In this document: one piece after another, positions 12,615 to 29,476 of the stretch
Layout of the letters: each line of letters opens with the position of its first letter
How positions within the stretch are numbered: position 1 is the stretch's first letter
DNA from: Melioribacteraceae bacterium
Lineage (GTDB): Bacteria; Bacteroidota; Ignavibacteria; Ignavibacteriales; Melioribacteraceae
Reading direction: 5' to 3'
NCBI GenBank assembly: GCA_016342755.1
Contig: JAEINS010000012.1
Span: 1-64,000 of the forward strand
Length of the DNA: 64,000 nucleotides
Notes under the pieces: model-generated
What the model was told of the DNA's origin: nothing
Database searches by the model: none
Seen by the model: only the letters and a program-made list of their open reading frames with translations
Made by a program: the position numbers and the translations under genes

Positions 12615-15600
12615 ATGGAAAGAAAAAAAATAACCATTGATGGTAATGAAGCAGCTGCTTATGTTGCTTTTAATGCTAGTGAAGTAATAGCTATTTACCC
12701 TATTACACCTTCATCCGGTATGGGTGAAATGTCTGACGCCTGGGCGGCAGCGGGGAAGAAAAACATTTGGGGAACAATTCCTAGTGTTTCTGAATTACAA
12801 AGTGAAGGCGGTGCCTCTGGTGCTGTTCATGGTGCGTTGCAAAGTGGTTCGTTAACAACTACTTTTACGGCATCTCAAGGTTTATTATTAATGATTCCAA
12901 ACATGTACAAAATTGCAGGTGAATTAACATCCGCTGTTTTCCATGTTTCGGCTCGTTCAATTGCGGCACAGGCTTTATCCATTTTTGGCGATCATAGTGA
13001 TGTTATGGCAACACGTCAAACTGGATTTGCAATGTTATGTTCCGGTGCAATCCAGGAAGTAATGGATTTCGCGGCAATATCTCACAAAGCAACTTTAGAA
13101 GCAAGAATTCCTTTTTTACATTTCTTTGATGGATTCCGTTCATCTCATGAAGTAGGTAAAATTGAACAATTAACACAGGAAGATATTAAATCGTTAATAG
13201 ACGATGACAAAGTTCAAGAGCACAGAAAAAGAGCTTTAAGCCCGGATAATCCTTTTATCAGAGGTACAGCTCAAAATCCTGATGTTTATTTCCAAGGCAG
13301 AGAAACAGTTAACAGATTTTATGATGCATGTCCTGAAATTGTTCAGAAATCGATGGATCAATTTGCAAAGCTAACAGGCCGTCAGTATAATTTATTTGAC
13401 TATTACGGTGCTGAAGATGCAAAACACATTGTTGTAATGATGGGTTCTGGTGCGGAAACTGCTGAAGAAACTGTTGAATATTTAACAAAACAAACTGGTG
13501 AAAAAATTGGTTTAGTAAAAGTTAGATTATACAGACCATTCTCAATTAAACACCTAATGGAAGCTTTTCCGGCAACAACTGAAAAAATTGCTGTTCTAGA
13601 CAGAACAAAAGAACCAGGCGCAACTGGCGAACCTTTATATCTTGATGTAGTAAGTGCGTTAGTTGATAATATGTCTTCGGATAATGCTAAATTTGCTAAA
13701 ATGCCAAAAATTATTGGCGGACGTTATGGTCTTTCTTCAAAAGAATTTACTCCGGCAATGGTTAAAGCAGTTTATGACGAATTGAAAAAAGATGCTCCTA
13801 AAAACGGATTTACAGTCGGTATTAACGATGACGTTACACATACTAGTCTTGAATTTGATAATTCATTTACTACGATTGGTAACGATGTATTCCAGGGTTT
13901 ATTCTACGGTCTGGGTTCTGACGGTACAGTTGGCGCAAATAAAAACTCAATTAAAATTATTGGTGAAGAAACTGATAACTATGCACAAGGTTACTTTGTA
14001 TATGATTCAAAGAAATCTGGTTCAACAACGGTTTCTCACTTAAGATTTGGTGAAAAAGAAATTAAATCTACCTATTTAATTCAATCATCAAAATTTGTTG
14101 GATGCCATCAGTTTGGATTATTGGAAACATTTGATGTTCTTGAAACAATGCAAGAAGGCGGAACATTCTTATTAAACAGTCCTTACAGCAAAGATGAAAC
14201 ATGGAATCATTTACCAAAAACTGTTCAAGAATCTATAATTACTAAAAAACTTAAATTTTATGTAATTGATGGTTACGCGGTTGGTAAAAAAACTGGTATG
14301 GGTACTAGAATTAACACAATAATGCAAACTTGTTTCTTCTATATTTCAAACATTCTTCCGCAAGACGAAGCAATAGAAAAAATTAAAGGTGCTATTAAAA
14401 AAACATATAGCGTTAAAGGTGATGAAATAGTTCAAAAGAATTATGCTGCTGTTGATGAAACAATCGCTAATCTGTTTGAAGTTAATTATCCTTCTGAAAT
14501 AACAAGTACAATTGAAAAACCGCCTGTAGTTCCAGCAAACGCTCCAGATTTTGTTAAAGAAACATTAGCGTTAATGATTAAAGGTAAAGGTGATGATGTA
14601 TCTGTTAGTCAGATGCCTGTTGATGGTACATTCCCATCGGCTACAACACAGTGGGAAAAAAGAAATGTTGCTTTAGAAGTTCCTGCATGGGATGAAGAAA
14701 CTTGTATTCAGTGCGGTAAATGTGCTTTAGTTTGTCCTCATGCCGCTATTAGAATTAAAGTATACGGCGAAGAATTATTAGCCAGCGCTCCTGAAACATT
14801 CAAACATACAGAAGCAAAAGGTAAAGAATTTGCCGGAATGAAATATACAATTCAGACTGCTGTTGAAGATTGTACAGGCTGTGGCATTTGTATTGATGTT
14901 TGTCCTGCTAAAAATAAATCGGAAGTTAAGCTTAAAGCTATAAACATGGTTGAACAGCTTCCAATTAGAGAACAAGAAAGAGTGAATTATGATTTCTTCT
15001 TGAACATTCCTGAATTTGACAGAACAAAATTAAAATTAAATACAGTTAAAGGAAGTCAGTTATTAGAACCATTATTCGAATATTCCGGTGCTTGTGCTGG
15101 TTGTGGTGAAACACCTTACGTTAAATTAGTTTCTCAGCTATTTGGCGATAGAACTATAATTGCTAATGCAACCGGCTGTTCTTCAATTTACGGCGGTAAC
15201 TTACCTACAACTCCGTGGGCTGTTAATGGTGATGGACGCGGGCCGGCATGGTCAAATTCATTATTCGAAGATAACGCTGAATTTGGTTTTGGTTTCCGTT
15301 TATCAATTGATAAACATAATGAATATGCAAAAGAATTATTAGTCTCTTTAGCTGGTACAGTTGGCGAAGATCTGGTAGATGGTATCTTAAATGCTGATCA
15401 GTCTGATGAAGTTGGAATTTTAGAACAAAGAGAAAGAATTGCCGCGTTAAAAGATAAATTAAGCGGAAATAATTCTGCGGATGCAAAACACTTATTATCA
15501 CTTGCTGATTATTTAGTTAAAAAATCAGTTTGGATTATGGGTGGTGACGGCTGGGCGTATGATATTGGTTACGGCGGTCTGGATCACGTAATTGCTTCAG

Positions 15601-16184
15601 GCAAAAACATTAATATTTTGGTAATGGATACAGAAGTTTACTCAAATACCGGTGGTCAGATGTCAAAAGCTACTCCGACCGGTGCTGTTGCTAAATTTGC
15701 TGCCGGTGGTAAACCAACAGGCAAAAAAGATTTATCGATGATGGCAATGAGTTACGGAAATGTTTATGTAGCTAAAATAGCAATGGGTGCAAATGATGTT
15801 CAGACAATCCGTGCCATAATGGAAGCTGAAGCTTATGACGGACCTTCTTTAATTATTGCTTATAGTCATTGTATTGCTCATGGTATCGATATGTCAAAAG
15901 GATTACAAAACCAAAAAGCTGCCGTAGAATCTGGACACTGGCCTTTATTCAGATTTAATCCTGATTTATTGGATATGGGTAAAAATCCATTGAAATTAGA
16001 TTCTAAAGCTCCTACAATAAGTTTTGCTGATTTCGCTTATAAAGAAAACAGATTCAAAATGTTAACAAAATCACATCCAGAAGAAGCAAAACAATTGTTA
16101 ACTATTGCTCAAAAAGAAGTAACAAAAAAATGGGCATATTACGAACAATTAGCGAAACTTGAATATTCAGAAAATGAAAAATAA
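12615..16184 (+). CDS. nifJ: Pyruvate:ferredoxin (flavodoxin) oxidoreductase
   Basis: Single-chain PFOR (1189 aa, normal for the homodimeric type). It interconverts pyruvate + CoA and acetyl-CoA + CO2 with ferredoxin/flavodoxin. It shows the N-terminal pyrimidine-binding domain (YPITPSSGMGE, about residue 30), a two-[4Fe-4S] ferredoxin domain (C697, C700, C703, C707 and C753, C756, C759, C763), the proximal cluster pair C827/C830 in GACAGCGE, and the thiamine-diphosphate domain (GGDGWAYDIG near 975; MDTEVYSNTGGQ near 1005). In the reductive direction it fixes CO2 onto acetyl-CoA; together with the ATP-citrate lyase at 23078-27102 it could supply two steps of the reductive TCA cycle. A hairpin follows the stop. 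Confidence 0.97.
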   Translation: MERKKITIDGNEAAAYVAFNASEVIAIYPITPSSGMGEMSDAWAAAGKKNIWGTIPSVSELQSEGGASGAVHGALQSGSLTTTFTASQGLLLMIPNMYKIAGELTSAVFHVSARSIAAQALSIFGDHSDVMATRQTGFAMLCSGAIQEVMDFAAISHKATLEARIPFLHFFDGFRSSHEVGKIEQLTQEDIKSLIDDDKVQEHRKRALSPDNPFIRGTAQNPDVYFQGRETVNRFYDACPEIVQKSMDQFAKLTGRQYNLFDYYGAEDAKHIVVMMGSGAETAEETVEYLTKQTGEKIGLVKVRLYRPFSIKHLMEAFPATTEKIAVLDRTKEPGATGEPLYLDVVSALVDNMSSDNAKFAKMPKIIGGRYGLSSKEFTPAMVKAVYDELKKDAPKNGFTVGINDDVTHTSLEFDNSFTTIGNDVFQGLFYGLGSDGTVGANKNSIKIIGEETDNYAQGYFVYDSKKSGSTTVSHLRFGEKEIKSTYLIQSSKFVGCHQFGLLETFDVLETMQEGGTFLLNSPYSKDETWNHLPKTVQESIITKKLKFYVIDGYAVGKKTGMGTRINTIMQTCFFYISNILPQDEAIEKIKGAIKKTYSVKGDEIVQKNYAAVDETIANLFEVNYPSEITSTIEKPPVVPANAPDFVKETLALMIKGKGDDVSVSQMPVDGTFPSATTQWEKRNVALEVPAWDEETCIQCGKCALVCPHAAIRIKVYGEELLASAPETFKHTEAKGKEFAGMKYTIQTAVEDCTGCGICIDVCPAKNKSEVKLKAINMVEQLPIREQERVNYDFFLNIPEFDRTKLKLNTVKGSQLLEPLFEYSGACAGCGETPYVKLVSQLFGDRTIIANATGCSSIYGGNLPTTPWAVNGDGRGPAWSNSLFEDNAEFGFGFRLSIDKHNEYAKELLVSLAGTVGEDLVDGILNADQSDEVGILEQRERIAALKDKLSGNNSADAKHLLSLADYLVKKSVWIMGGDGWAYDIGYGGLDHVIASGKNINILVMDTEVYSNTGGQMSKATPTGAVAKFAAGGKPTGKKDLSMMAMSYGNVYVAKIAMGANDVQTIRAIMEAEAYDGPSLIIAYSHCIAHGIDMSKGLQNQKAAVESGHWPLFRFNPDLLDMGKNPLKLDSKAPTISFADFAYKENRFKMLTKSHPEEAKQLLTIAQKEVTKKWAYYEQLAKLEYSENEK

Positions 16185-16196
16185 ATAATTAATTTA

Positions 16197-16220
16197 CACT
16201 TCCTCTTTGCGGAGGAAGTG
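16197..16220 (+). terminator. Hairpin between PFOR and the DHOD-like gene
   Basis: CACTTCCTC and GAGGAAGTG form a 9-bp perfect stem around a 6-base loop. No uninterrupted T-run follows, so it may be an mRNA-stabilising or partial-termination hairpin within an operon rather than a full stop. The next gene begins 34 nt later. Confidence 0.5.
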
Positions 16221-16253
16221 CATTAAAATTATTTTAAGATAACAGGAGATATC

Positions 16254-17252
16254 ATGGATTTAACAACAAAATACATGGGATTAGAACTTAAGAATCCAAT
16301 AGTACCTGGAGCTTCTCCATTGTCACAAACAGTTGATTCTGTTAAAAGATTGGAAGATGAAGGTGCATCAGCAATAGTTTTATACTCACTTTTTGAAGAA
16401 CAGCTTTCACATGACCAGGGAGAACTTGATCATTATCTTTCTTTTGGTGCTGAAAGTTTTGCAGAAGCCGTAAATTATTTCCCTTCGGTAGAAGAATTTA
16501 AAACCGGACCTGTTGAATATCTTGAGCATATAGCTAATTTAAAAAAAGCCGTAGGAATTCCTGTAATTGGCAGCTTAAATGGTGTTAGTAAAGGCGGCTG
16601 GGTAGAATATGCGCAAAATATGGAACAAGCTGGTGCGGATGCAATAGAATTAAACATATATTATGTAGCTACAAATCCGGATCTTAGCGGTTCTGAAGTT
16701 GAAGCTATGTATATTGATACAATTAAAGCAATTAAAGAAAAAGTTAAAATTCCTGTAGCTGTTAAAATCGGGCCATATTTTACTTCAATTTCAAATATGG
16801 CAAAAAAAATGGATGAAGCCGGTGCTGATGCGCTTGTTTTATTTAATAGATTTTATCAGCCGGATTTTAATCTTGATGATCTTTCAGTTGAATCTAATTT
16901 AATGTTAAGCAGTAATTGGGAATTAAGATTGCCGCTAAGATGGATATCTATTCTTTATGGTAATGTTAAGGCAAATTTGGCTGCTACAAGCGGTGTTCAC
17001 AACTCTTTGGATGTAGTGAAAACTGTTATGGCTGGTGCTGATATTACTCAGGTTGCTTCAGCATTATTGTTAGAAGGTTCAGGTAAAGTTAATAGCCTGA
17101 TTAAAGGTGTTGCTGAGTGGATGGAAGAAAAAGAATATTCTTCAATTTCACAAATGAAGGGCAGTATGAGTCAGAAATCATGTTCTGAGCCTGCCGCGTT
17201 TGAAAGAGCAAATTATATGAAGATGCTCAACAGCTATAAACCTCAAATTTAA
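16254..17252 (+). CDS. Dihydroorotate-dehydrogenase-like flavoprotein
   Basis: A TIM-barrel protein of the class-1 dihydroorotate dehydrogenase superfamily (332 aa): MDLTTKYMGLELKNPIVPGAS start, VAVKIGPYF strand, and C-terminal phosphate/FMN-binding strands (LAATSGVHN, ASALLLEGSG). Where true DHODs have the LNLSCPN active-site segment, this one reads ELNIYYVATNP (residues 132-142), so the nucleophilic Cys/Ser is missing and pyrimidine synthesis is unlikely. Relatives annotated 'DHOD-like' often sit next to PFOR genes, as here (70 nt after nifJ). A role with PFOR is inferred. A good ribosome-binding site (CAGGAGA) precedes the ATG. Confidence 0.85.
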   Translation: MDLTTKYMGLELKNPIVPGASPLSQTVDSVKRLEDEGASAIVLYSLFEEQLSHDQGELDHYLSFGAESFAEAVNYFPSVEEFKTGPVEYLEHIANLKKAVGIPVIGSLNGVSKGGWVEYAQNMEQAGADAIELNIYYVATNPDLSGSEVEAMYIDTIKAIKEKVKIPVAVKIGPYFTSISNMAKKMDEAGADALVLFNRFYQPDFNLDDLSVESNLMLSSNWELRLPLRWISILYGNVKANLAATSGVHNSLDVVKTVMAGADITQVASALLLEGSGKVNSLIKGVAEWMEEKEYSSISQMKGSMSQKSCSEPAAFERANYMKMLNSYKPQI

Positions 17253-20730: not shown

Positions 20731-22823
20731 TTATTCAAAATAATTTGTCCTGATCAGGTGATATTTTTTTACAATTTCATCTAACGAATCCGGTTCGCCA
20801 ATAATTGTAAGTATATCGTTTTCTTTTAAAATAGTACTGCCATCAGGTATTATATTGTCGTTATTTCGCCTAATCCAGGCAACTAAGCTTCCTTTTGGAA
20901 GATTAATTTGCTGCAAAGAGTTTTCGCTCATATTTATGGTTTCATCTCTATTCGATATTTTAAGATATAAAAACCTTTCATAATGCAGCATAGCAATTTT
21001 TAACTCATGCGGGTTTTTTGCTCTGTCCCAATCTTTGAAAAATGAATTTTCCTCAACTCTGCTTGCAATTCTTGCCAGTATTCTTAGGTGCTGGGTCGGA
21101 TTTTTTTTAGGGCTGACTAAGAAAAAAACTGCTTTTACTATGACTTCGGTAATCTCGTCACTTTGGGACAATGGATTTTTATACAATATTTTCACACCTT
21201 TTTTAGGGCGTACTAATGCCAGTTTTGGATTTTCTAATCCATCAATAATTAAGTGGGGGAGCGCAATTTGCCTAATTACCGGAGTGGCTCCAATTCTTGT
21301 TCCGTCTAAAAATTCCTTTAAAATCTTTTTTGCGGGATAATTAATATCCTCCGAAATCCATTCGGCAACCTGTTTAGCAATTTCTTCAAAATTTGAAATT
21401 TCGTCAATATCTATTATAAAACTTTTTGCAACTATTTCATCAAAAGGATCTTCCTTTTTAGGAGTTCTTTTTTTCATTAAATCTCTTAGTTCATAATCAA
21501 TTCCCGCATATTTATATTGACCAAGTCTTTCAAAAATATTATATATTGCTCCGGTTCGTAAAACATGCCCTTTTGCATAGTAAAAATACCATAATGATCC
21601 TGCTATTATTAATGTTACGGAAAAAAGAAAAGGCATCCAGCCCATTTCCATAATAAAAATAAATGAACTAACAATTCCGAAAATTTGCATCCAGGGATAA
21701 AAGGGAGACTTAAATGAAGGATCGTATGATTCAATCTTACTTTCTCGCATAATAATAACAGAAAAGCAGGTAATGGAAAAAAGTAATAACAGAAAAGTGC
21801 TGGTAAGTTTTGCTATAGTTGTAGGATTTAAAAAATATATTATGGCTGCTATTATTAGTACTGAAATTATTATCGATACAAAAGGTGTTCCTTTAGAATC
21901 TATTTTTCTAAATATAGTTGGAATAAGATGATCACGGCTCATGGCAAGAGGATATCTGGAAGCACTTAAAATTCCCGCATTTGCGACAGAAAGAAATGAA
22001 AAAATAGCGGCAAAAGAAATTAGGATAACACCAGTACGTCCTGAAAACGCTTCTGCTGCAACCGCGGCAGGGATTAAACTACCAGCTAATGTATCCATGG
22101 GAATTACTCCCACCATTATAATAAGACCTAGTACATATATAATAAGTGAAGTTCCTAATGCCCAAAATATTCCTCTTACTAAATTTATTTCCGGACGGGA
22201 AATTTCTTCAGCAAGACTTATTACTTTTGTAATTCCGATATAGCTCATAAATACAAAGCCGGCGGTTGAAAACAGAGATGTAAACTCTGTATCAAAAATA
22301 CCGGAAAAGTTTTCAGTTTTAACTTCAGAAATTCCTCCGATAATAAAAACGACTAAGATTGATATTAAAAATACTAATAATACTATTTGGAAAGTTCCGC
22401 TCTTCTTTGAACCAAGCAGATTTACTAAACCAAGTATAAAAGCAATTCCAATCGAAATCGGGATAATTTCTACATCAGGGAAAAATATTTGAAGATAAGC
22501 TCCCATACCTATTAATGCAAAAGCAACTTTTAATATTAGCGAAAGCCATGTTCCAACTCCGCCAATAGTTCCGAAATATGGACCCAGAGTACGGTCTATA
22601 AAAAAATAAATTCCTCCGGCCCGGGGAATAGCGGTTGCTAATTCAATTTGACTTAATAGAGCAGGTATTAAAGGAATAACCGCTATTAGATACGATAAGA
22701 CTATGGCAGAACCTGCTTCTAAGGCAGCCAGACCAGGCAGTAAAAAAAACCACCGCTAATTGTGGTTCCGGTTGCAATAGCAAAAACTCCCCAAAAATTT
22801 ATACTTTTTCTCAGACGTGCCAT
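20731..22823 (-). pseudogene. Amino-acid permease / EIIA-like / TrkA-C fusion, frameshifted
   Basis: The whole gene would encode about 697 aa: an APC-family transporter (about 12 TM helices, residues 1-440), a PTS EIIA type-2-like domain (about 470-620, with the His-bearing IALPHLIIDG) and a C-terminal TrkA-C-like ligand-binding domain (LPKGSLVAWIRR...ENDILTIIGE). Translation starts at 22823 (ATG, AAAGGTG upstream) and reads MARLRKSINFWGVFAIATG...SGGFF. A run of eight Ts (minus strand; 22742-22749) then shifts the frame to an early stop. Adding one T restores LLPGLAALEAG and reads without interruption to 20731. The intact frame downstream suggests a recent lesion, phase variation or a homopolymer sequencing error. 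APC-EIIA-TrkA fusions are likely regulated amino-acid/cation transporters. Confidence 0.85.
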
Positions 22824-23010: not shown

Positions 23011-23040
23011 AAAAAAAAGGGATTCAATATTTTGAATCCC
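23011..23040 (-). terminator. Terminator of the ATP-citrate lyase operon
   Basis: Read on the minus strand: GGGATTCAA, a 4-base loop, TTGAATCCC and then eight Ts. It lies 38 nt past the aclA stop. The same hairpin follows tRNA-Leu at 27564-27585. Confidence 0.88.
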
Positions 23041-23052
23041 TAAAAAGTACCG
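23011..23052 (-). repeat. 42-bp direct repeat, distal copy (tRNA-Leu 3' end + terminator)
   Basis: It is identical in 39 of 42 positions to 27556-27597: eight As, the 9-bp stem hairpin, a short A-rich link and GTACCG. In the other copy TACCG is the last five bases of the tRNA-Leu gene, so this copy carries a scrap of tRNA 3' end that has no tRNA attached. The two copies are in the same orientation and enclose the acl operon. The hairpin loop here (TATT) is the reverse complement of the other copy's loop (AATA). Confidence 0.8.
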
Positions 23053-23077
23053 TGAACCAGAAGAGCTTTTAATCTAT

Positions 23078-25801
23078 TTATAATACAAATTTAAGCTCAC
23101 GTTGTGGAGTTCTGCAATCCATATCCTGACCACGGTCTCTATGATCAGCAATTTCTGCCGCAACACCAATTGATCTGCCATATAAGAATAATGTGAATAC
23201 CAAATTTTGTATTTGCTGTTTAGAGATTTTACCTGAAGCAAAATCTTTCCAAACAAGTTTTAATGTTAAAACAGCCAAGACCGCATCAACATTAACGCAG
23301 AATACATTTCTAGTCGCGCCTTCATTAAATAATTCTTTTACCAGTTTATGATAGAAGTCTAAGAAAACATTATACACATCACGTTTTTCAAGTTCACTGC
23401 TAACAAATTGTTCACGCGGATCAAAATTAACATCGTTGCCTTTGAACACAGGATGATTTACACATGGAATTCGTTTGTAATTTAATTCGCCAAATTCTTT
23501 CGAGTGTTTTTTGAATCTTGTATATTCTTTAGCCGCTTCGCTAGCTAATTTATCTAAATCAACATCATTTTTCCTGGAACTTGGATCAGTAATATTTATT
23601 TTCTCAAAGGTGTTTAACAAGAAATCAATTGCTTCAAAACCGTTTCCGCCATGCGCTAACCCGGTGTTAACCATAAATCCAACAAACGCCAGAGAAATAT
23701 TGTTTCCCGCACTAACTGATTCCTTAGAGCCTTTTGCCGAAATTGTTCCCGGTCCGTTTGTAAGAGTTAAACCTATAAGAGTCTGGAACTCAAAAAGTTC
23801 ATCCCCGGTTGGAACCCTGTTAAAAAGGATTTTGAAAGCATTGTCCGTAAAACTATTATTTATATTGGATATTTTCTTATCAGTCAGTTTTTGCCAGAAT
23901 TTATTGTTTTTTCTATCAATTACCGAATAGGCAAAAATCCTTGATATAACATATAAATATGAAAGTGAATCTTCTGCAACCTTTTTACTAATGCGTTTTT
24001 CCAGCATCGGTTTCCAGAAAATACAAACAGCGATAGTGGCAAGTAAAAACTCATGCTGATCTTTGATATACATTTTTTCTTTTTCAGCAATATTTAGAAT
24101 ATATTGACATACTTTTAGAGCAATACAATTTTTATTACTTTTTTTAACTTCTTTGTAAAGCATATCAGCAACGTCACTTTTCTTAGGAGCCTTTTTAGTT
24201 AGAAGTTTTTCCCTAATGTATTTGTGAACCTCGACAGGTATTTTTTTGTTTTCGTGAATACCAAATTCACGTATTAAATCTATTATAAACTCAGCTTGCT
24301 TTCTAGAGTTCGCCAATAACGGCTTATTTCCAATCATGGCAATTTGCGAGCTTATATAAGCGTTTGGAGTTGCTCCGTTAGCCATTGCAGTATCAATATT
24401 AAGCATAGCTTTAGGATTCATTTTTAAGAAAATATTTAGCAATAAATTAATTGAAGGGATATCTTCTTTTTCCGGAAGTACTTTTGCAATTGAGAAATAA
24501 ATATTTTCTTCAATAGAATTTTTAGACAGATCAAGAATAGTTTTCCCATGAAGTTCAGCAACTTGAGTCCCGGGATTCATTTTGGAAGCACCAGATGTAT
24601 TTCGCATATTTTGTCTTAAATACTGCGCTCCTACTTGCTTATTTATTTCCTCAATTTGTTTATCATAAGGAGAAATTGCTCTAAACACGGGAATATTTAA
24701 TTCATCAGGTAATTTCATAATTGTGTCTGAGAGCCATGGTTTTAATGAAAGGTCACCATCCGAAGGGAAATCAGGTTCTTCATCAAGTTTTTCAAAAACA
24801 GTTTTCATAGCATCCGGCACCTGTTGTATATTAGCTACACGTACACCGCGCTTGCTTACTTTAGGCTTATCAGGATTAAAACATTTAACTCCAAAATAAT
24901 CATCAAACCATTTCTCTTTTGTTTCAGCATCATCGCCGCCGCCGGCAAGTGCCCCGGCATGACCGCAGGATCTTGAAATATTCTTTTTCCATCTTCCTGT
25001 TACACAAACTACAATTGGTTTATTAAAACCAAATCTTCGTTCTTTAATCCAATCCAAAGCCATCTTTTCATAATAACCGCCGGGTTCTACATAAAGAGCT
25101 ATTGCCTTTGTACGGGGATCGTTCTGCGCAGCGTATAAAAATTCAGGCAATGCAAAATGTACATAAACATCCTTACCTGAACTAACAGCTGTTGAAATAC
25201 CAAATCCGGCAATTCTTAAATATTCGGCCATTGTTGTTGTAAAATTTCCGGAATTAGAATGAATTGCTATAGAACCTTTTTTAAGTGTTTCGGCAGGATC
25301 ATCACCACCCAAAGCTCCTCCAACTCTTACGTTATCCCAAACATTAGCTATACCTAATGAATTTGCGCCAATCACGTCAACACCGGCTTCCTGGCACAAA
25401 AATCTGATGTTTCTGGAATCACGCGAAGAAATTTTTTCAGTAACAATTACTATGCGTTTAAGGTCTTCATTGTATTGCGTTAATTCGGATACAGCCTGAC
25501 TAACAGCCGTGGGCGGTAAATAAATAACACCAGTATCAAATGTATGCCCGTTGTCCATTACGTCCCGAACTGACTGGTAATATGGGATATCGCCAATTTT
25601 AGTTTCTAATTTACCGCTTCTTCCGTATTGTACGCCGGCAACTATATTTCCGCCACTATACTCGTGCGAAACGGGTGTTACCTTTCTACTTTCACTTCCT
25701 AATATATTTATAACACATACCCTGCTATTTTCTGTTACTAATTCTTCTAAAGAATGTACACCAACAAAGTATGGAAAAGGTTTCGTTTTTAATTGTCTCA
25801 T
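23078..25801 (-). CDS. aclA: ATP-citrate lyase large (alpha) subunit, long form
   Basis: Large subunit of ATP-citrate lyase, which cleaves citrate with ATP and CoA to acetyl-CoA and oxaloacetate. The N-terminal part (1-365) is a succinyl-CoA-synthetase-like CoA-ligase with the phospho-histidine His281 in CGHAGALAGG. The C-terminal part (about 655-907) is a citrate-synthase-type lyase with candidate catalytic residues His717 (GLAHGG), His783 (VNHPV) and Asp839 (VNVDA), and the conserved GRSIG. Between them, residues ~370-655 form a helical, Lys-rich region without clear family match, making this protein 907 aa against about 600 in Chlorobium. It follows aclB by 29 nt. No frameshift is seen. 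Confidence 0.9.
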   Translation of the reverse strand: MRQLKTKPFPYFVGVHSLEELVTENSRVCVINILGSESRKVTPVSHEYSGGNIVAGVQYGRSGKLETKIGDIPYYQSVRDVMDNGHTFDTGVIYLPPTAVSQAVSELTQYNEDLKRIVIVTEKISSRDSRNIRFLCQEAGVDVIGANSLGIANVWDNVRVGGALGGDDPAETLKKGSIAIHSNSGNFTTTMAEYLRIAGFGISTAVSSGKDVYVHFALPEFLYAAQNDPRTKAIALYVEPGGYYEKMALDWIKERRFGFNKPIVVCVTGRWKKNISRSCGHAGALAGGGDDAETKEKWFDDYFGVKCFNPDKPKVSKRGVRVANIQQVPDAMKTVFEKLDEEPDFPSDGDLSLKPWLSDTIMKLPDELNIPVFRAISPYDKQIEEINKQVGAQYLRQNMRNTSGASKMNPGTQVAELHGKTILDLSKNSIEENIYFSIAKVLPEKEDIPSINLLLNIFLKMNPKAMLNIDTAMANGATPNAYISSQIAMIGNKPLLANSRKQAEFIIDLIREFGIHENKKIPVEVHKYIREKLLTKKAPKKSDVADMLYKEVKKSNKNCIALKVCQYILNIAEKEKMYIKDQHEFLLATIAVCIFWKPMLEKRISKKVAEDSLSYLYVISRIFAYSVIDRKNNKFWQKLTDKKISNINNSFTDNAFKILFNRVPTGDELFEFQTLIGLTLTNGPGTISAKGSKESVSAGNNISLAFVGFMVNTGLAHGGNGFEAIDFLLNTFEKINITDPSSRKNDVDLDKLASEAAKEYTRFKKHSKEFGELNYKRIPCVNHPVFKGNDVNFDPREQFVSSELEKRDVYNVFLDFYHKLVKELFNEGATRNVFCVNVDAVLAVLTLKLVWKDFASGKISKQQIQNLVFTLFLYGRSIGVAAEIADHRDRGQDMDCRTPQRELKFVL

Positions 25802-25830
25802 ATTCTTCTCAATTTTTAATTAACACTTTG

Positions 25831-27102
25831 TTAGCTGTTTTTACTAGTTAATCTTAAATATTCTTTTTTCCCTTCTTTACTCCACCACTCATCAATTTTC
25901 TTCGCGTATTCTATTGAAAGTATCATTGATGTATCAAATCCAAAAACTTTATAAGGTAGTTTAAGAGTGTCTAGAATATCTTTTGCATAAAACATTCCTT
26001 TAACCAGATTGGGACCGCCGCGCCCTATAACCGTATAAATTGGTTTTGATCCGTTCTCAGCTATATGATCACGAAGTGCGTCAAATATACCTTTGAAAGT
26101 AACGTATATATCGGTGTTATTTGCTTTCCCGCCAATTAGCAACAAGACATTGGCTTTTTCTAACCAATGCTTAAATACTATACGGCTTATATCATACATT
26201 TTTTCATAAGGAGGATTTCCTCCAAAATCTGAAGCAAATATAGCTGAAGATCCCAGGGTTTCTGTTGCGGCCGAATTAGCACCGCCGCCGAACATAAACG
26301 GAATAATACTTCCTTTGGGATTTAGTTCAACAACATCACTCTGACCTTGATATGTACGTAATTTATTGATCTCAGACTCAAAAGGGGAGATATCCGACTG
26401 GAATATTGTGGAAGGTAATCCAATACGTTTCCATGCGGGATTATCCTGATCGAATGCAGCTTTAATATCGCACGCAACCGGAATATACTGATTACCCTGT
26501 TTTGTTACACGGATAGGATTAATCTCAATTGTTGTTAATCCGTAATTTTCATAAAGATCCCAAAGTTTTGGAATGAACCTTACTAAACACGAGATATATC
26601 TTTGCGGACAGCCGGTATCGGTTAACGCGTTAGTAATATCGAATGATTTCAGACCGATAAACGGATCGATCTCTACAATTTTTTTCTTATCAGCCGGAAG
26701 ACTTTCTATATCAACTCCTCCGTGAGGTGTAATTGTAAATATAGGCTTTCTATGTATGGTTGAAGCGGTAATCGAAAAATATACTTCCAGTTCAGCTTCA
26801 ACAAATTCTTCCATTGTTACGCCATTTGCCTGAATGGTTTTTATGCCATGTTTATGTTTTGCAAAATATAAATCTTGCTTGGCATCCAAAGCATCAACAA
26901 GATTATCTACTATTTTAATTAATCCCGCTTTCCCTTTTTTCCCGACTCCGCCATAGAAAAAAGGTTTTACAACTAGTTTTCCATGTTTGTCCAACATTTG
27001 TTGAATTTCTTCCTTATTTGCTCCACCCGTAATTACTTCGGGATATGGAAATTCTACTAAGTCGAGCAATTTGGAACCATATCTTAATCCAGATAATTGC
27101 AT
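25831..27102 (-). CDS. aclB: ATP-citrate lyase small (beta) subunit
   Basis: 423 aa, the usual size (about 400). The N-terminal ATP-grasp region (GKLVVKPFFYGGVGKKGKAG, ITPHGGVDIESLP, TTIEINPIRV, VACDIKAAFD) binds ATP and passes phosphate to the large subunit. The C-terminal CoA-ligase part (MFGGGANSAATETLGSSAIFA; LLLIGGKANNTD; VIGRGGPN) completes the citryl-CoA synthetase half. It is the first gene of a two-gene operon read leftward, in the aclB-aclA order known from Chlorobi. About 450 bp without genes separate it from tRNA-Leu upstream. Confidence 0.92.
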   Translation of the reverse strand: MQLSGLRYGSKLLDLVEFPYPEVITGGANKEEIQQMLDKHGKLVVKPFFYGGVGKKGKAGLIKIVDNLVDALDAKQDLYFAKHKHGIKTIQANGVTMEEFVEAELEVYFSITASTIHRKPIFTITPHGGVDIESLPADKKKIVEIDPFIGLKSFDITNALTDTGCPQRYISCLVRFIPKLWDLYENYGLTTIEINPIRVTKQGNQYIPVACDIKAAFDQDNPAWKRIGLPSTIFQSDISPFESEINKLRTYQGQSDVVELNPKGSIIPFMFGGGANSAATETLGSSAIFASDFGGNPPYEKMYDISRIVFKHWLEKANVLLLIGGKANNTDIYVTFKGIFDALRDHIAENGSKPIYTVIGRGGPNLVKGMFYAKDILDTLKLPYKVFGFDTSMILSIEYAKKIDEWWSKEGKKEYLRLTSKNS

Positions 27103-27554
27103 GTAAGTGCCTATATATTCATTTCAAAAAAATAGGTTAATTATACATTTTTGTTGAAAATTGATATTGTAAAACTGAATGACAAAGATCTTTTAGTTGA
27201 TATTAAGACTACATCTAAGTTTCTAAATACATAATCAAATAATTCCATTGGAATAAAGTGGCTTGCGAATTTAGCTTAGACAATTAGGTTAGATTCTTTG
27301 TCAGACAGATTATACAGCGTAGCGAAAGAACGTTCTCAAACAAAAATTTAATTTGATATTGATAACATAGAAAAACTTATTGAAGTAACAAAATTATATA
27401 AGGAAAAATTTACTTATATAAATTGTGCGAAAACTGAGGAATTAAGTTAAAAATAGAAGTTGAAATTAGATAGGAATGGAATTTATATAAATTGCTTAAA
27501 TCATTTATATATGTAAAGCAAATAGAGTAAATAATTAATATCGAAATTTTAAAT
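27103..27554. other. Non-coding stretch upstream of aclB
   Basis: No intact gene is present. The plus strand contains stop-broken stretches that read like degraded coding sequence (for instance a ~30-codon open stretch around 27353-27446), but no family could be named. The region must hold the aclB promoter. It lies inside the pair of 42-bp repeats. Confidence 0.4.
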
Positions 27555-27555
27555 A

Positions 27556-27597
27556 AAAAAAAAGGGATTCAAAATATTGAATCCCTTAAAAGTACCG
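27556..27597 (-). repeat. 42-bp direct repeat, proximal copy at tRNA-Leu; includes the tRNA terminator
   Basis: It contains the last five bases of tRNA-Leu and its rho-independent terminator (stem GGGATTCAA/TTGAATCCC at 27564-27572 and 27577-27585, followed on the minus strand by nine Ts). It is the partner of 23011-23052. Confidence 0.85.
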
Positions 27598-27676
27598 AAG
27601 GCCGGACTCGAACCGGCACATCCTTGCGAATACTAGATTTTGAGTCTAGCGCGTCTACCAATTCCGCCACTCCGGC
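27593..27676 (-). tRNA. tRNA-Leu (CAA)
   Basis: 84-nt gene with a long variable arm. The acceptor stem pairs GCCGGAG with CTTCGGT (with the G1-U72 wobble frequent in tRNA-Leu), the anticodon stem-loop CTAGA-CTCAAAA-TCTAG gives anticodon CAA, the variable arm is TATTCGCAAGGATG-like, and the T arm is GCCGG-TTCGAGT-CCGGC. The discriminator is A, as required for leucine. CCA is not encoded. A terminator follows at once. Confidence 0.95.
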
Positions 27677-27781: not shown

Positions 27782-29476
27782 TTATTTTTTATTAAACTTA
27801 GCCCATGAATCTTTTAGAGAAACAGTTCTATTGAATATAAGATTATCTTCAGTTGAATCTAAATCAACATTAAAATATCCTCGTCTTTCAAATTGAAATT
27901 TATCACCGGACTTAGCATTCTTTAGAAATGGTTCAAGCTTGCAATTTTCAAGTACTTCTAAAGACTTGGGATTTAACAATTCACTAAGTTCTTTCTCTTT
28001 ATTGCCAGACGGATCTGAATCAATAAAAAGTCTATCATACAATCTAACTTCAGCATCAATAGCATGTTTTGCCGATACCCAGTGAATTGTTCCTTTAACT
28101 TTTTTACCACTGTTACTTAATCCGCTTTTTGTTTCCGGATCGTATTCACAATGTATTTCTGCTATTTCACCATTATCATCTTTTACAAGACCAGTACACA
28201 TAACTATGTAAGCGTAACGTAAACGAACTTCTTTACCTGGTGAAAGCCTGTGGAATTTTTTGTGTGGCACTTCCTGGAAATCTTCTTTCTCAATATAAAG
28301 CTCTTTTGAAAATGGAACTTTGCGTTTTCCCATAGTTTCATCTTCCGGATTATTAACAGCTTCAAGTTCTTCAACAAGATCTTCCGGATAATTTGTTATA
28401 ATAACTTTTACCGGATTAACAACACCCATAACACGCTGTGCATGACTGTTTAGATCCTTTCTGATACTATCTTCGAGCAGAGTAACCTCGGTAATACCAT
28501 TACGTTTAGCAACTCCGGTTTTTTCCACAAAATTTTTGAGAGAAAGACTTGTATATCCTCTGCGCCTTAAGCCCGATATAGTTGGCATTCTGGGATCATC
28601 CCAACCATTAACATGATTTTCCTGAACAAGCTGCAGAAGTTTTCTTTTACTCATTACAGTATAATCTAGATTTAAACGCGCAAATTCTATCTGCCTTGGC
28701 TTAGAAGGCATGTTATCGATGTGTTCTATAAACCAGTTATACAAAGGTCTGTGGTTCTCAAATTCCAGGGTGCAAATTGAATGAGTAATACACTCAATTG
28801 AATCCGATTGACCGTGCGCAAAATCATACATAGGATAAATACACCATTTATCGCCAGTTCTATGATGATGCGCTCTTTTAATGCGGTATAATGCCGGATC
28901 ACGAAGATTCATGTTTGGCGAAGTCATATCAATCATTGCTCTAAGAGTTTTTGCACCGTCAGGGAATTCACCATTTTTCATTTTCTCAAAAAGTTCAAGG
29001 TTTTCTTTAACTGATCTGCTACGGAACGGACTTAGTTTTCCGGGCTCTGTAGGAATCCCTCTGTACTCCCGCATTTCCGCAGGATTTAAATCACAGACAT
29101 AAGCTAAGCCTTTTTCTATAAGGTTAATTGCCCACGCATATAGTTGATCAAAATAATCGGACGCAAAGAATAACCGGTCTTCCCAATCAACTCCTAACCA
29201 TTTAACATCTTCCATTATAGAATCAACATATTCTGTTTCTTCTTTTTCGGGATTTGTATCATCAAAACGAAGATTAAACTTGCCGCCGTATTCCTGAGAA
29301 ATTCCGTAGTTAAGAAGTATAGATTTTGCATGACCAATATGCAAATAACCGTTTGGTTCCGGCGGGAAGCGGGTATGAACCTTCCCGGAATTTTTACCTT
29401 CCTTCAAGTCTTCATCTATTATAGTTCTAATAAAATCTCTTGAAATTACTTCGTTTTTAGATTCTTCATTATTCAT
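27782..29476 (-). CDS. glnS: Glutaminyl-tRNA synthetase
   Basis: 564 aa class-I synthetase charging tRNA-Gln. It shows the HIGH motif (residues 46-49 within [15 protein letters not shown]), the MSKRK motif (275-279), GlnRS-specific segments (FRFDDTNP-like [24 protein letters not shown]), and a C-terminal anticodon-binding beta-barrel pair. The presence of a true GlnRS implies that Gln-tRNA is made directly rather than only by the GatCAB amidotransferase route. It lies 47 nt downstream of gltX, and the two probably form an operon. Confidence 0.97.

Follow-up and report, generated by a model that had tools for sequence, protein, structure and literature searches.

The nearest precedent for the repeat described below, by analogy, is the 10K genomic island of Riemerella anatipestifer (Bacteroidota), in which, according to the passages of PMC6764341 at hand, an insert immediately downstream of tRNA-Arg is bordered by a direct repeat of 53 bp, an attachment repeat; the printed repeat sequence ends, by our own reading, in a terminator hairpin. 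For the genes concerned, the ATP-citrate lyase of Chlorobi is reported as laterally acquired in the available parts of PMC9342728 and PMC9560492. Here a stretch of 64,000 nucleotides from a Melioribacteraceae bacterium (assembly GCA_016342755.1, contig JAEINS010000012.1, positions 1 to 64,000; hereafter the window) was analysed, in which the ATP-citrate lyase operon aclBA lies between two copies of a 42-bp repeat, one of them at the 3′ end of a tRNA-Leu gene with anticodon CAA. As in the Riemerella island, the repeat carries a terminator hairpin, and as reported for Chlorobi, a lateral gain of aclBA in Melioribacteraceae is well supported by sequence comparison. That the laterally gained operon was inserted at the 3′ end of tRNA-Leu(CAA), with the repeat as its footprint, is plausible but unproven, with a probability of roughly 0.5.

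A rare 42-bp repeat brackets aclBA

The repeat that an earlier note on this DNA had described was recovered at the positions given there (Table 1), with 39 of 42 bases identical and the two copies in the same orientation; the match extends to 52 nt at 87%. When the two flanks of the operon were compared, the best 42-base match scored 39, against a mean of 26.1 and a maximum of 29 in 60 dinucleotide shuffles. The repeat pair is thus real and far beyond chance. Each copy consists of the last six bases of tRNA-Leu(CAA), as delimited by ARAGORN, plus the terminator of that gene, and identity ends abruptly at the tRNA end; the five tRNA bases counted previously become correct if the final C is left out. 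The 25-nt hairpins of copy 1 (beside the tRNA) and copy 2 (behind aclA) are exact reverse complements of each other too, so that two of the three mismatches are explicable by one flip of the 4-nt loop. An extra tRNA remnant (GGTTC) in the 25 bases between aclA and copy 2 was considered and ruled out (p = 0.28).

The predicted folds of copies 1 and 2 reach −15.0 and −15.6 kcal mol−1, respectively, and none of 200 shuffles was as good for either. A terminator scan over 11 kb returned nine sites, both hairpins among them, which overall is near the shuffle level (6.9, s.d. 3.1). Both copies are terminator-like in the sense direction of their own gene (tRNA-Leu and aclA, respectively), and copy 2 is probably the terminator of the aclA transcript.

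In the whole genome (4.73 Mb in 56 contigs), the stem pattern of the hairpin was found at four sites with up to one mismatch: two are the copies in the window, and the other two differ in their inner sequence. The exact hairpin was found in these two copies only. BLAST of tRNA-Leu plus terminator against the same genome recovered copy 2 at E 5e-11, and among the best four of five matches the other two, on other contigs, covered the tRNA part only. Furthermore, no exact match to the 42-bp pattern was found in viral contigs, and a DNA search of plasmid records matched the tRNA part alone in the best 20 of 37 records. It is very improbable that the 42 bp are a dispersed hairpin repeat that came to lie at these two positions by coincidence. 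Such families do occur in the genome (a GATGACATCTTT hairpin is found at 39 places with up to two mismatches), but the stem pattern at issue has four sites, of which two carry this inner sequence, and the match covers the tRNA tip; a dispersed origin is refuted within the assembly and the searches made. The earlier note had named a spread of the same 42 bp to many unrelated genes as a sign that it was mistaken; no such spread was seen, and the pair is unique in the genome as searched.

Other repeats were also found in this genome. The GATGACATCTTT-NNN-AAAGATGTCATC family (for example, C28:25770-25796, C28:252749-252775 and C9:127963-127989) had 0 occurrences in a reversed control. A tandem repeat of ~114 bp occupies C9:132884-134087 at a contig end, and repeats of the GTCATTTCGA and GTCACTGCGA types are scattered over C28:190189-259133.

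Probable lateral gain of aclBA in the family

At E 1e-90, 8 of 79 family genomes, that of the window among them, gave a match to aclB and the remaining 71 gave none; the figure of 8 is a lower bound, and one further genome, G028, is an additional aclA carrier, with aclA at a contig end and aclB missing. The neighbours of acl differ between the family loci read. In an AclA tree, which is quick and based on a simple model (78 of 81 rows, three short AclA fragments being excluded; acl loci taken as the best 80 of 296), the enzymes of the family form two or more separate lineages, of which one lies near Acidobacteriota and others and another near Bacteroidota and Calditrichota. Both lineages occur in the metagenome-assembled genome (MAG) G018, which is 68% complete and 4% contaminated and may be a mixed bin. 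The tree also includes two MAGs titled M. roseus (L187 and L191) that do have aclA; M. roseus, of the same family, is reported to be without ATP-citrate lyase in the portion of the literature at hand.

The comparison with a species marker that the earlier note had proposed supports lateral acquisition. RpoB joins G004 with G016 and AclA splits them (the RpoB tree uses fragments from 11 genomes and does not fix the position of the window). Moreover, among the window, G083 and G058, which belong to three genera, AclA is 83.6-87.8% identical, as compared with 79.3-80.4% for RpoB and 65-73% for GlnS. The aclBA operon of G083 is flanked by trxB and a gene of 124 aa; these two are separated by 55 bp in the same-genus G031 and by ~60 bp in the genome of the window (in G084 the spacing is 1.5 kb, with different content between). 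The G083 operon is a clean bare insertion with an empty-site comparison, in a genus different from that of the window. The 124-aa gene was not found in the 18 kb fetched of G058, where the site is not comparable. For the G058 insertion itself, the large neighbour gene (760 aa; presumably TonB-receptor-like, from its translation read by eye) was not found in four same-genus genomes, a search with no positive control. The patchy presence, the AclA lineages, the discordance between AclA and RpoB and the G083 insertion are what make lateral gain well supported, and gains inside the family seem to have been repeated. As to carriers, AclB at E 1e-60 matched only distant relatives in plasmid records (all 19 records <60% identical), and no AclB match was found in phage records at E 1e-20.

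An unlikely alternative is that acl descended vertically from an ancestor of the family, was mostly lost and was elsewhere shuffled, its proximity to tRNA-Leu being accidental. It would accommodate the five clade-I AclA of the family forming one supported group, the acl genes of G016 lying beside a pyruvate:ferredoxin oxidoreductase and a dihydroorotate-dehydrogenase-like gene (por/dhod), a neighbourhood bordering the interval of the window, and an AclA in the window that is no closer than RpoB to those of G004 and G043. It is harder to square with the presence of two or more AclA lineages within the family and even within one MAG (if not a mixed bin), with the splitting of a pair that RpoB unites, with AclA being closer than RpoB among the window, G083 and G058, and with a G083 site that is intact in G031.

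Two observations concern the surroundings of these operons. In G016 (L067, 2777-11508), an AclA of a different lineage (53% identical) directly adjoins por/dhod, as borders the acl interval of the window. In G083 (L092) and G058 (L093), which are of different genera, ~390 bases before aclB align (z = 12), which suggests that the transferred unit there took its promoter region along. A leader upstream of aclB common to the window and these two was sought and rejected, none being found for the window.

Variable neighbourhood of tRNA-Leu(CAA)

Among 14 fetched loci of relatives that contain tRNA-Leu(CAA), the gene stands beside glnS in 10, with two in opposite orientation, and por/dhod is found further along in 3. 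The genes that follow the tRNA vary among relatives; from translations read by eye, they presumably include a GIY-YIG-like gene, thioredoxin-like genes, an ATP-grasp/GCS-like block and others. In the earlier note, relatives without acl were expected to have tRNA-Leu directly followed by the permease that lies past copy 2 in the window. This expectation was not borne out in the loci compared: the permease was not found at any of the 20 relative loci fetched, of which 14 contain tRNA-Leu. It exists in 12 of 16 genomes searched, and wherever the contigs are known it does not share one with tRNA-Leu or glnS; as the relatives are draft genomes, its separation from tRNA-Leu falls short of full proof.

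The tRNA 3′ flanks of the relatives compared are unlike that of the window. The exact stem GGGATTC/GAATCCC at the 3′ flank of tRNA-Leu(CAA) was found in 1 of 33 relative genomes for which this flank is available (G084), a hint that the tRNA-side copy is the older one. The 3′ side of the gene has been rearranged elsewhere as well. In G028, a partial copy of the tRNA-Leu 3′ part lies directly behind tRNA-Leu(CAA), and none is found in the same-genus G101; in G057, from another family of the order, a 62-nt partial copy lies 2 kb away. By eye, the partial copy in G028 (L070, 7951-8100, compared with G101, L241, 3439-3560) contains the palindrome TGCCTGTCGGCAGACAGG and is followed by the terminator of G101, and G023 (L078) seemingly holds a decayed version of it. 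In G025 (L071, 3997-5860), two complete tRNA-Leu(CAA) genes flank an open reading frame (ORF) of 356 aa, which we take to be DUF1016/YhcG-like.

Proposed insertion at the tRNA 3′ end or possible separate copying of its terminator

In the proposed course of events, aclBA would have arrived by lateral transfer, probably from within Melioribacteraceae, and entered at the 3′ end of tRNA-Leu(CAA), at the edge of a variable interval between glnS and por/dhod. One side would keep the tRNA and its terminator whole, and the other side would gain a second tRNA 3′ tip with terminator, so that the repeat resembles an attachment site, with copy 2 now the probable terminator of aclA transcription. Repeat and insertion would have arisen together, possibly through a site-specific recombinase that acted in trans or was later lost; an identical mark is also expected from a staggered break followed by fill-in. 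This course is favoured by the orientation and rarity of the repeat, by copy 2 lying where the laterally acquired operon ends and including tRNA bases superfluous to a terminator, by the overlap of copy 1 with the last six bases of the tRNA, which puts the insert beside the tRNA 3′ end, and by the rearranged 3′ side of tRNA-Leu(CAA) in G028, G057 and G025.

Several results weigh against it. No integrase-domain match was found between the repeats, and of 11 such matches in the genome, the one in the window is ~20 kb from copy 2. The repeat includes only six tRNA bases, with three mismatches and an inverted loop, and tRNA attachment sites usually share more than six tRNA bases. Bracketing repeats were found at 0 of 63 other acl loci (65 of 80 loci had both flanks >200 bases, of which up to 900 were read, and two of these, without aclB in place, were set aside), the best scoring 30.1 bits versus 63.5 in the window. 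For the G083 insertion in particular, no tRNA gene was found in the 18.7 kb scanned (L131), and the 900 bases compared to either side gave no bracketing repeat. No close empty site was found among the relatives compared, which lie outside the genus of the window. The window's AclA is less similar than RpoB to that of G004 (74.0 versus 78.3%) and about equally similar to that of G043 (70.2 versus 70.7%), so that the excess of AclA over RpoB is limited to the window, G083 and G058. Upstream of aclB, the window shares no sequence with G083, G058, G004 or G043; downstream of aclA, it resembles G083 weakly (3 of 200 shuffles scored as high) and G058 still less (15 of 200). The composition of aclA and aclB is ordinary (G+C 35.5 and 36.5%; third-position G+C 26-28%), and their codon distance is inside the range of 18 window genes. 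From the earlier proposal of an insertion at a tRNA 3′ end, the lateral origin of aclBA and the rarity of the repeat hold up, while the missing integrase and the mere six tRNA bases tell against the insertion itself. Relatives that have acl and lack the repeats, an outcome the earlier note regarded as adverse, are what the 63 loci are, though these represent separate insertions.

A serious rival, which we regard as possible, is that acl came or moved by another route and that the tRNA-Leu terminator was copied separately behind aclA, by template switching or a short segmental duplication, and was kept as the aclA terminator, the repeat then being uninformative on how acl arrived. It would explain why both copies are terminator-like in the sense direction of their own gene, the flipped loop is a possible product of template switching at a palindrome, and it fits the lack of an integrase, the differing 3′ flanks of the other family acl loci printed and the 0 of 63 bracketed loci. 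It accounts less readily for the six tRNA bases that came along and for the seat of the copy at the far end of an acquired operon. Moreover, in a sample of 394 kb of the 4.73 Mb, searched for short repeats at E 1e-5 and read by eye, no other local terminator pair was found, and the two short pairs seen close together (C28, ~190.2-190.6 kb and 258.3-259.1 kb) resemble dispersed repeats; local copying is seemingly infrequent, by this sample. Returning to insertion at the tRNA 3′ end, a bolder version, which we consider improbable, is that in this family the terminator hairpins at tRNA 3′ ends may serve as recombination sites, by which bare metabolic operons such as aclBA would be captured behind tRNA-Leu without an integrase, each gaining a ready-made terminator.

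Gene content of the locus and the encoded enzyme

The features of the locus are listed in Table 1. The order aclB then aclA, both on the minus strand, was confirmed, and copy 2 is located 25 bp behind aclA. Apart from aclB and aclA, the only ORFs of ≥60 aa between the repeats are short ones that overlap aclA. The stretch before aclB had been described as 450 bp of degraded sequence. Four of its translations gave nothing meaningful against a family library (one match, at E 0.098, was below the cut-off) and a search of the genome turned up no paralogue, the strongest other match covering 26 bases (E 1.5e-4); the stretch has the look of intergenic, AT-rich DNA. A remnant of an integrase or another gene there was considered and rejected, there being no meaningful match.

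Table 1. Features of the aclBA locus and its surroundings in the window.
Feature	Position	Strand	Remark
Pyruvate:ferredoxin oxidoreductase and dihydroorotate-dehydrogenase-like gene (por/dhod)	12615..17252	+	Far side of the variable interval
Amino-acid permease, PTS-EIIA-like and TrkA_C domains, N-terminus lost by frameshift	20731..22506	-	Next gene past copy 2
Repeat copy 2, 39/42 of the same 42 bp, loop inverted, without tRNA	23011..23052	-	Probable aclA terminator
aclA, ATP-citrate lyase alpha subunit, long form, 907 aa	23078..25801	-	
aclB, ATP-citrate lyase beta subunit, 423 aa	25831..27102	-	Pfam Citrate_bind PF16114, 65 bits
AT-rich stretch (23.7% G+C) from the tRNA terminator to aclB, no recognisable gene	27103..27545	.	
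Repeat copy 1, last six bases of tRNA-Leu and intrinsic terminator, hairpin 27562-27587	27556..27597	-	
tRNA-Leu (anticodon CAA)	27592..27676	-	ARAGORN; sole tRNA gene of the window
glnS	27782..29476	-	Frequent tRNA-Leu(CAA) neighbour in Melioribacteraceae

AclB matches PF08442 and PF16114 above cut-off, and PF24948 below its cut-off. AclA, of which the N-terminus is succinyl-CoA-ligase-like and the C-terminus citryl-CoA-lyase-like, matches PF02629, PF13607 and PF00549 above cut-off; its residues 650-897 match a citryl-CoA-lyase model below its cut-off, and GHAGA at 280-284 is invariant across 11 sequences. None of the NCBIfam models was above cut-off for AclA or AclB. For both subunits, the best solved match is citryl-CoA synthetase (6hxq), and ATP-citrate lyases (6hxj and others) score lower. 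The name 'key CO2-fixation enzyme' given to the product earlier is thus too strong. The reductive tricarboxylic acid cycle-related genes seen in the window, which alone was examined for them, are por and aclBA, and a role of AclBA in CO2 fixation is possible. An assignment of the long AclA to 'type II ACL' is possible but is not decided by the passages of PMC3522073 at hand.

Two further observations concern other genes of the window. The permease (20731-22820) has an ORF of 591 aa, as compared with open frames of ~700 in relatives, and its N-terminus is in a different frame, with the break at a run of eight T that may reflect sequencing error, a pseudogene or slippage. A tyrosine recombinase (PF00589 and PF13102) is encoded at 1652-2893, ~25 kb from tRNA-Leu.

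Comparison with known systems

No account of this locus was found in the literature on acl and tRNA-terminator integration, as judged by titles and the openings of abstracts. Lateral acl and tRNA-linked islands are each already known, and their combination is a new instance. In Melioribacteraceae, aclBA is a two-gene unit at unrelated sites, with at least two AclA lineages, one bounded case that bears on how individual key enzymes of carbon metabolism spread. Should the repeat be a footprint, the locus would show the uptake of such a unit together with a ready-made terminator.

Within the family, the operons of G083, G058, G004 and G016 have the same two genes with unrelated neighbours, and no mobility gene was recognised by eye in the listed ORFs of the other family acl loci, for which no family-library search was made. 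The bracketing repeat sets the window apart from the 63 comparable acl loci. A tRNA was found within 500 bp of acl at 1 of 80 loci (L153, tRNA-Pro), many of the flanks being short. Unlike the Riemerella island, as far as the passages at hand describe it, the interval bracketed here contains two metabolic genes and no integrase, and its repeat is imperfect, with only six tRNA bases. And whereas Chlorobi, by the available parts of PMC9342728 and PMC9560492, acquired the enzyme once in their stem and then passed it on largely by vertical descent, Melioribacteraceae seemingly gained it repeatedly.

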